A stretch of 64,000 nt of DNA from positions 310,001-374,000 of the forward strand of contig NZ_DRFV01000008.1 in assembly GCF_011050365.1 (NCBI RefSeq), read 5' to 3'. Below are positions 17,175 through 18,297 of the stretch, in pieces. The translations under genes were made by a program, and so were the position numbers. Below the pieces are notes generated by a model. It saw nothing but the letters and a program-made list of their open reading frames with translations, had not been told where the DNA came from and ran no database searches. How positions within the stretch are numbered: the first letter of the stretch is position 1; each line of letters starts with the position of its first letter. This stretch comes from Pseudohongiella sp. Its GTDB lineage: Bacteria; Pseudomonadota; Gammaproteobacteria; Pseudomonadales; Pseudohongiellaceae.

Positions 17175-17202
17175 TTGACACTGTTGCGACTTCGAGATTA
17201 CT
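17175..17202 (+). promoter_or_regulatory. candidate promoter of the 25-codon gene
   Basis: A perfect -35 TTGACA at 17175-17180, 11 bases after the NhaC stop codon. A weak -10 (ATTACT, 17197-17202) follows with 16-base spacing, so the pairing is uncertain. It would give a leader of about 36 bases before the small gene. Confidence 0.45.
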
Positions 17203-17230
17203 CTCAAGCCATGTTCAATTGAGAAATAAA

Positions 17231-17243
17231 AAGGAGGTGATCC
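17231..17243 (+). promoter_or_regulatory. extended Shine-Dalgarno, 13-base match to 16S rRNA 3' end
   Basis: AAGGAGGTGATCC is the exact complement of the conserved 3' end of bacterial 16S rRNA (GGATCACCTCCTT). GGAGG ends 7 bases before the ATG at 17245, which is ideal spacing. Most ribosome sites in this window match only 4-7 bases, so this is exceptional and points to very efficient translation. Confidence 0.85.
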
Positions 17244-17244
17244 A

Positions 17245-17322
17245 ATGTCGAGTGATTCAGCTAAGGTTTCAATGGATGTTGGTGCAATTAAAAAAGCCGG
17301 GAGTAACTTCCTGGTGGTTTGA
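17245..17322 (+). CDS. 25-residue peptide gene, undescribed
   Basis: A 25-codon ORF from ATG 17245 to TGA 17320. The product begins MSSDSAKVSMDVG and ends AGSNFLVV. It is neither a membrane helix nor strongly charged (two Asp, three Lys). Support for it being a real gene: the 13-base Shine-Dalgarno at perfect spacing, a TTGACA element 70 bases upstream, and an intrinsic terminator starting 52 bases after the stop. I recognise no family. It could be a small functional peptide, a precursor, or a leader peptide that controls the aminotransferase gene downstream. No peptide-modifying enzyme is adjacent. Confidence 0.7.
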   Translation: MSSDSAKVSMDVGAIKKAGSNFLVV

Positions 17323-17331
17323 TGACACCCC

Positions 17332-17363
17332 TCTCTGATCTCAGAGAAGGTTCCATTGGAGCC
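17332..17363 (+). promoter_or_regulatory. two tandem hairpins downstream of the peptide gene
   Basis: Hairpin one pairs TCTCTG (17332-17337) with CAGAGA (17342-17347). Hairpin two pairs GGTTCC (17349-17354) with GGAGCC (17358-17363). The latter GGAGCC is also complementary to GGCTCC at 17386-17391, which overlaps the 3' arm of the terminator, so mutually exclusive folding is possible. This resembles an attenuator layout, but no regulation has been shown. Confidence 0.5.
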
Positions 17364-17373
17364 AGCATCACGG

Positions 17374-17398
17374 AAAGGGAGCTACGGCTCCCTTTTTT
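17374..17398 (+). terminator. strong intrinsic terminator with UACG tetraloop
   Basis: AAAGGGAGC (17374-17382) pairs with GCTCCCTTT (17387-17395) across a TACG loop closed by C-G, a very stable UNCG-type tetraloop, followed by six T (17393-17398). It separates the 25-codon gene from the aminotransferase gene, which starts 41 bases later. Confidence 0.9.
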
Positions 17399-17439: not shown

Positions 17440-18297
17440 GTGAGCAGAACGGTATTTGTAAACGGGGAATATTTGCCAGAGGAAAACGCCACCATTTCCG
17501 TGTTTGATCGCGGATTCCTGTTCGGTGACGGAGTCTACGAGGTGATACCCATTGTGAGGGGCAAGCTGGTCGATGAAGACTACTCGATTGAGCGTCTGCG
17601 TCACAGCCTTAGCGCCGTGGAAATTGCCTGGCCCTGCACTGAGGCTGACTACCTGGCTATGCTGCGTGAACTGATTCGGCGCAATGGCGTCACAGAAGGC
17701 AGTGTCTACGTACAGATTACCCGGGGCATTGCCGAGCGTGATTTTGCCTATCCGCCGCACATCAAGAGCACCATCATGGCTTACACCTCGTCGCGGAGTC
17801 TGCTGGACAATCCGGCAGCGCTGGCCGGCGTCAAGGTCGTGTCGGTACCCGACCTGCGCTGGCAACGGCGTGATATCAAGTCGCTGAATCTGCTGGGCCA
17901 ATGTATGGCAAAACAACAGGCAGCAGCGCAAGGTGCATTTGAAGCCTGGATGCTGGAAGACGGCATGGTCACCGAAGGTGCTTCGTCATCAGCGTTCATT
18001 ATCAAAGATAAAACCATCATCACACGGGCATTGTCCAACGCCATTCTGCCGGGCATCCGTCGTCGCGTGATTCTGGAGCTGGCAGAGCTGGCCAGCGTGA
18101 CGCTGGTCGAACGCAGTTTCAGTCTGGAAGAGGCCCTGGCTGCTGATGAAGCCTTCATCAGCAGTGCCACCACACTGGTCATGCCGGTGGTCAGTATTGA
18201 TGGCAAGGTGATTGCTGATGGCAAGCCGGGGCCACTGACACAAAAACTCAGAAGCCTTTATATCGAAAGCCTGTTGGCAGAAGCTGCCAGCAAATAG
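17440..18297 (+). CDS. dat: class IV aminotransferase, D-amino-acid transaminase-like
   Basis: A 285-residue PLP enzyme of the D-alanine transaminase/branched-chain aminotransferase fold. It begins with FVNGEYLPEENATISVFDRG, followed by GDGVYE, a basic segment with R-R-DIKSLNLL that contains the PLP-binding Lys, and EGASSSAFI. These match D-amino-acid aminotransferases, which make D-glutamate and D-alanine for peptidoglycan or recycle D-amino acids. A GTG start at 17440 has GGAAGG upstream. A terminator lies just before it, so expression may depend on read-through or a hidden promoter. Confidence 0.88.
   Translation: MSRTVFVNGEYLPEENATISVFDRGFLFGDGVYEVIPIVRGKLVDEDYSIERLRHSLSAVEIAWPCTEADYLAMLRELIRRNGVTEGSVYVQITRGIAERDFAYPPHIKSTIMAYTSSRSLLDNPAALAGVKVVSVPDLRWQRRDIKSLNLLGQCMAKQQAAAQGAFEAWMLEDGMVTEGASSSAFIIKDKTIITRALSNAILPGIRRRVILELAELASVTLVERSFSLEEALAADEAFISSATTLVMPVVSIDGKVIADGKPGPLTQKLRSLYIESLLAEAASK

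Follow-up and report, generated by a model that had tools for sequence, protein, structure and literature searches.

A predicted small RNA distantly related to CC2171, with a complement of the whole 16S rRNA 3' tail and a reading frame that retains its start and stop but not its amino acids

Background

CC2171 (RF01867), known from Caulobacter, has so far been an orphan small RNA, filed by Rfam as a plain sRNA and as non-coding. Release 15 of Rfam added one covarying pair to the family (PMC11701678), and a set of sRNA candidates listed with RNA-seq coordinates assigns MH_s33 of Mesorhizobium huakuii to CC2171 (PMC5596092). No function of CC2171 was found in the literature searched. Two RNAs of Caulobacter that had earlier been predicted to be non-coding are reported to be translated (Schrader 2014, PMC4117421).

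The present analysis concerns an element in a bacterial DNA stretch of 64,000 nucleotides, here called the window, that had been predicted to be a gene for a 25-residue peptide. The features of the window described below lie on the forward strand and are numbered from its first base.

Results

Relation to CC2171

In a search at permissive settings, the whole RF01867 model (1-159 of 159) was matched at 17221-17393 of the window (E = 3e-4, 26.8 bits), in a full-length alignment that includes the helix P1 (see below) and the terminator. The Caulobacter control genome was detected by the RF01867 search. At the gathering score, 75 bits, which the window's copy does not reach, Rfam gives no match for the element. 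Because the copy scores under the curated cut-off, the window's RNA is called a distant relative; it appears to be related to CC2171 without being a formal member of RF01867. The original prediction had called the gene undescribed, which is partly wrong in view of this distant relationship.

A Rhodobacteraceae copy also matches the entire model at permissive settings (E = 9e-4), and two alphaproteobacterial copies, retrieved with the Shine-Dalgarno (SD) pattern, exceed the RF01867 cut-off with 79.7 and 76.3 bits. The element is the best RF01867 match in all 17 chosen genomes, these having been picked by the SD block, which itself earns RF01867 score. The score of the window's copy, too, is partly derived from this shared block, by which most of the relatives had been retrieved. 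Across the order, none of 390 genomes reaches the gathering score and 14 of 390 have a match at E 0.01; four of the 14 (G108, G319, G413 and G424) may be chance.

The Rfam consensus of CC2171 also contains this SD block, and a long-range pair in it joins the two regions that form P1. CC2171 and the window's RNA are alike in a CAAC-type leader, followed by AAGGAGGUGAUCCA(R)UGUC, the pre-terminator pairing and the terminator. They differ in the AUG start and the helix P2, which are typical of the window's family. To the plain sRNA of the Rfam entry, the present analysis adds an ORF with retained start and stop.

Parts of the locus

A promoter is predicted at 17175-17204, with TTGACA at 17175-17180, an 18-nt spacer and TACTCT at 17199-17204, and a TTGACA ... 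TACTCT-like layout is also present in most of the same-family loci read. Transcription would start at about 17211. The predicted small RNA, of about 185-190 nt (17211-17398), is delimited by the promoter-to-terminator span, the fold and the RF01867 match. It carries AAGGAGGTGATCCA at 17231-17244, the complement of 14 consecutive nucleotides of the 16S rRNA 3' tail, and then a 25-codon ORF (17245-17322 including the stop), whose start and stop, not its amino acids, are kept family-wide. From the ATG at 17245 to the TGA at 17320-17322 the ORF would encode MSSDSAKVSMDVGAIKKAGSNFLVV. The unit closes with an intrinsic terminator at 17372-17398, in which a UACG-loop stem, AAAGGGAGC-UACG-GCUCCCUUUUUU, is followed by a T-run ending at 17398; relatives have terminators at the equal relative place. 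The ATG/TGA reading frame, the SD, the TTGACA element and the UACG-loop terminator (given as 17374-17398) of the original prediction are therefore all present in the sequence.

Predicted fold and covariation

The fold predicted for 17215-17398 has an energy of -72.5 kcal/mol (z = -5.5), and none of 200 shuffled sequences is as stable. The SD and the start codon are predicted to lie in an open 5' tail, save for a 3-bp hairpin. The ORF codons would pair with sequence 3' of the stop, as far as the terminator, and inner hairpins would take in the end of the ORF, with the stop codon within a stem. In P1, GUGAU in codons 3-4 (17252-17256, starting 7 nt past the A of the AUG) pairs with AUCAC immediately 5' of the terminator (17367-17371); in P2, GGUUUCAAUGGA within the ORF (17265-17276) pairs with UCCAUUGGAGCC (17352-17363). 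A hairpin in the 3' part of the ORF, GCCGGGAG-UAAC-UUCCUGGU (17296-17315), belongs to the predicted fold, and similar hairpins are predicted in close relatives. A like fold is predicted for many same-family relatives.

Among 20 same-family sequences, 94.7% of the P1 and P2 cells are paired, versus 28-53% when the strands are slid, in an alignment that consists of hand-cut helix strands only and so favours pairing. For P2, 93% of cells are paired, with changes on both sides at three of its 12 pairs. In the alignment of both helices, the pair 26-48 is UA in nine of the 20 sequences, CG in eight and UG in three. Between groups, the sequence that follows the start and the sequence that precedes the terminator differ and yet remain able to pair, as in the P1 strand pairs AGTGAGAT/ATCTCAC, CATTGTC/GACAATG, CATTGCC/GGCAATG, ATGAGATT/AATCTCAT and CGAGAAAG/CTTTCG. 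The mean P1 energy with each copy's own partner is -7.26, versus -5.57 (S. D. 0.18) with permuted partners (0 of 2000 permutations), and 0 of 2000 was also obtained within the mixed alphaproteobacterial group. No such signal was seen within the Rhodobacteraceae or the window's family, where the strands scarcely vary. The sequences are related and these counts are not independent; with this reservation, the predicted helices P1 and P2 are supported by covariation.

In the 3' region of Rhodobacteraceae-type copies (e.g. L062, CCCCACCTCC), a CACCTCC-like segment that mimics the 16S anti-SD can pair with the copy's own SD. Compared with shuffled flanks, the SD is predicted to be more paired in 13 of 14 Rhodobacteraceae-type copies and three of four Gemmatimonadota copies, and not more paired in the window's family, in the group f15 or in other alphaproteobacteria; the window's family is without a CACCTCC-like segment. 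Sequestration of the SD by the 3' region was accordingly rejected as a general rule.

Pairing with the 16S rRNA tail

The 13-mer AAGGAGGTGATCC (17231-17243) occurs once in the 3.63-Mb assembly, where base counts alone would predict about 0.1 copies. Those same-genus genomes that include the 16S 3' end show it as the reverse complement of AAGGAGGTGATCCAGCCGCAGG. The 13-base complementarity of the original prediction is thus real, and it extends to 14 nt (17231-17244). The window's own assembly apparently is without the 16S 3' end, since the 13-mer and its reverse complement give one match in all. The 16S rRNA of a same-genus genome is 87.8% identical to that of E. coli over 1501 nt, and from this identity the organism is probably a gammaproteobacterium.

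GGTGATCC is found in all the same-family loci read. GATCC, the part of the SD block beyond the needs of ordinary initiation, is present in every one of them as an exact match to the 16S tail. A 14-nt duplex with the tail would reach the base preceding the AUG, which is beyond what initiation normally needs, although the match may merely provide very strong initiation.

Such pairing raises the possibility of a decoy, or hibernation-like RNA, that sequesters free 30S subunits by 14-15 nt of tail pairing and releases them through the ORF; this would be one specific output of the 30S-docking explanation developed in the Discussion. The constancy of GATCC is in its favour, as is P1, which from 7 nt after the A of the AUG would impede the start. 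A precedent is offered by the archaeal Val-tRF, an ncRNA reported to inhibit translation on the small subunit (PMC11009984). However, GATCC may alternatively close a local hairpin, GGA-GGUGA-UCC, to which the Rfam structure is similar, a decoy would have to be very abundant to be effective, and no bacterial RNA of this type was found in the literature searched. A decoy is thus possible, albeit doubtful.

Translation signals and the peptide

When any base was allowed at the first position of the start codon, G was found 79 times, A 33 times, T seven times and C never. The starts alternate between ATG, GTG and TTG, never CTG, and the stops between TAG, TAA and TGA, never TGG. In 75 of 77 Rhodobacteraceae-type copies the stop falls exactly at codon 19 (TAG 40, TAA 19, TGA 16); TGG is absent from this position, versus 8.5 expected from the column frequencies (nominal P = 1e-4, relatedness ignored). 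Start and stop are thus retained as in a small-protein gene, and both look to be under selection.

The codons between them exhibit a different pattern. Distinct codon variants of the Rhodobacteraceae-type ORF comprise 16 synonymous and 39 nonsynonymous changes, versus 15/40 in each of the two wrong frames; the corresponding counts in the window's family are 3/19, versus 5/16 and 7/15. The other two groups, which are small, agree. In none of the four groups is the synonymous share of the true frame above chance or above that of the wrong frames, so that the selection on amino acids expected of a small protein is not seen, and the amino acids seem to be free of constraint in all four. The peptides of different groups have little in common except Ser at position 2.

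These counts bear on the view that the gene produces a small mRNA, from which a functional peptide of 25 residues would be translated at a high level by way of the long SD. The open frame with retained start and stop would fit, and so would the N-terminus MSS(D/G)M..VS.D.G, recognisable among the peptides of the window's family; the two predicted Caulobacter ncRNAs reported to be translated (Schrader 2014, PMC4117421) offer a parallel. Against this, no group has a synonymous excess (zero of four), the N-terminal likeness (VSMDVG) coincides with the P2 strand GGUUUCAAUGGA, and the length ranges from 18 to more than 30 codons (approximately 18-33), with C-termini that are unrelated between groups. 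The peptide as the main function was rejected on the synonymous and nonsynonymous counts in three frames, and a peptide mRNA is improbable.

The highly expressed small protein that had been proposed is therefore not borne out, since synonymous variation is not raised in the four groups and the peptides share little between groups. The dual-function RNA proposed as the other choice is supported in part, by a conserved structured RNA whose ORF appears to be translated; a function of the peptide is not supported by the codon counts. Most simply, the ORF would be translated by ribosomes, and selection would act on translation rather than on the peptide made.

Distribution and neighbouring genes

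A unit of 231 bases was matched in 39 of 95 related genomes by a blastn-type search. The unit is conserved in related genomes and is not due to chance, since about 29 same-family loci have a promoter, an SD, an ORF and a terminator in combination. The series in these loci is a promoter, a UUCAACUGA-like leader, AAGGAGGTGATCCAATGTC(T/G)AGTG and a variable ORF of 20-33 codons, followed in most of them by a GGUUCC...GGAGCC segment, CACG and a GGGAGC...GCUCCC terminator. The start block UGUCNAG is conserved.

A scan of the GTDB contigs with the pattern AAGGAGGTGATCCANTGTCNAG returned at least 118 stretches; the matches listed are mostly from Rhodobacteraceae and other Alphaproteobacteria, with some from Gammaproteobacteria and two from Gemmatimonadota. 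A second pattern, AAGGAGGTGATCCADTG, in which codons 2 onward are left free, was matched in 29 of 289 genomes from the class to which the Rhizobiaceae MAG G432 belongs, in three of 121 from the phylum to which the Gemmatimonadetes MAG G433 belongs, and in two of 369 from the window's class. When the loci were read, the architecture proved common to all of these matches except about three (L200, L207 and L230). The distribution of exact matches is wide but patchy, and copies with altered SD blocks escape it. The order of the parts is unchanged in relatives from Alphaproteobacteria, other Gammaproteobacteria and Gemmatimonadota, and the small RNA appears to be old and widespread among bacteria. 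No match was found in plasmids (two alphaproteobacterial queries) or in E. coli (window query), and viral contigs gave one match only, in a 70-aa ORF that is apparently unrelated.

A minimal version of the element is seen in L089 (SAR92-cluster MAG contig CABZOI010000006.1, minus strand, about 930-951), where the SD block, a GTG start, about 20 nt and a TTTCACTGGGAGCC-terminator follow one another and the middle domain is absent. Pairing is conceivable between CCAGTG, around the start, and CACTGG, ahead of the terminator, and the ORF continues towards a tRNA-gene-like sequence.

The adjoining genes, named from sequence without a family search, vary by group, and the element therefore behaves as a stand-alone gene. 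An antiporter-like and a transaminase-like gene adjoin it in the window's genus; in many Rhodobacteraceae the upstream gene is VUT/YhhQ-like and the downstream gene is often ArfB-like (GGQ), and further groups have other neighbours. Rhodobacteraceae loci, e.g. the 8-kb loci L107, L111 and L113, thus often have the RNA gene between the VUT/YhhQ-like and the ArfB-like (GGQ release-factor-like) genes, which may hint at a link with ribosome rescue. In Pelagibacterium luteolum, an FMN riboswitch (L086, 5129-5280; 115 bits) is located immediately downstream of the element.

The neighbour comparison speaks to a cis-acting role, in which the element would be a leader or an attenuator controlling the transaminase-like ORF at 17440. 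The element lies 118 nt upstream of this ORF on the same strand, and the two stay together within the window's genus. However, the element is constant while the downstream genes differ between groups, the copies terminate at their own terminator, and conserved linkage to one downstream gene was not observed; this reading was rejected and is very improbable. A stand-alone gene with a terminator, and the filing of CC2171 as an sRNA, would suit a classical trans-acting antisense sRNA in which the ORF is incidental. Yet the best-conserved stretch is the SD/start block, whose evident partner is 16S rRNA, and the start and stop codons are retained, so that an antisense role of this kind is unlikely.

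Discussion

The explanation that we consider probable is a stand-alone structured sRNA that docks the 30S subunit by pairing with its tail, and in which translation of a disposable ORF switches the RNA between two states. The ribosome-binding block in the open 5' tail could pair with 16S rRNA along the full length of its single-stranded 3' tail (14 nt). The downstream part would form one domain, with codons 3-4 in P1 and codons 7-11 paired with post-stop sequence in P2. The segment holding the start of P1 is, from 30S footprints, a region that the 30S must thread. Since the tail duplex would extend up to the AUG and P1 would lie in the path of the 30S, the subunit may be expected to dock readily, while initiation would need P1 to be melted. 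Translation up to the stop would then unfold P2 and the inner hairpins, and the RNA would toggle between two states, docked while folded and translated while unfolded. Possible outputs are retention of the 30S, exposure of the RNA to a partner, and the lifetime of the RNA; in our view the output would most likely be in trans, by holding of the 30S or by exposure of the RNA in one of its two states.

A more far-reaching and rather tentative idea is that this bacterial RNA is ancient and would sense free 30S subunits, or titrate them, by pairing with the complete single-stranded 16S 3' tail, the translation of a meaningless ORF serving as its reset. Such an RNA would be the ribosome's counterpart of 6S RNA.

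The results suggest that an RNA family related to CC2171 reaches Gammaproteobacteria and Gemmatimonadota. Because the ribosome-binding site, the start and the stop are kept and the amino acids are not, translation itself is likely to be the function. Screens for small ORFs by Ribo-seq or SD strength can misreport such RNAs as small-protein genes. It is the combination that is of interest: complementarity to the full 16S tail, an ORF with unconstrained amino acids and a conserved fold embedded in this ORF, within a wide-ranging relative of an orphan sRNA.

SgrS is a dual-function sRNA with a translated ORF, whose peptide has a function of its own. The same is true of rnTrpL (PMC10117765). The window's RNA would resemble both in combining a small RNA with a translated ORF, and differs from both in that its amino acids are not conserved. 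In the extended SD sites of Staphylococcus aureus, two extra base pairs are formed in ordinary mRNAs (PMC13009471). These sites share with the window's RNA a lengthening of the SD pairing towards the start codon, whereas in the window's RNA the match covers the whole 16S tail and is found within one structured RNA.
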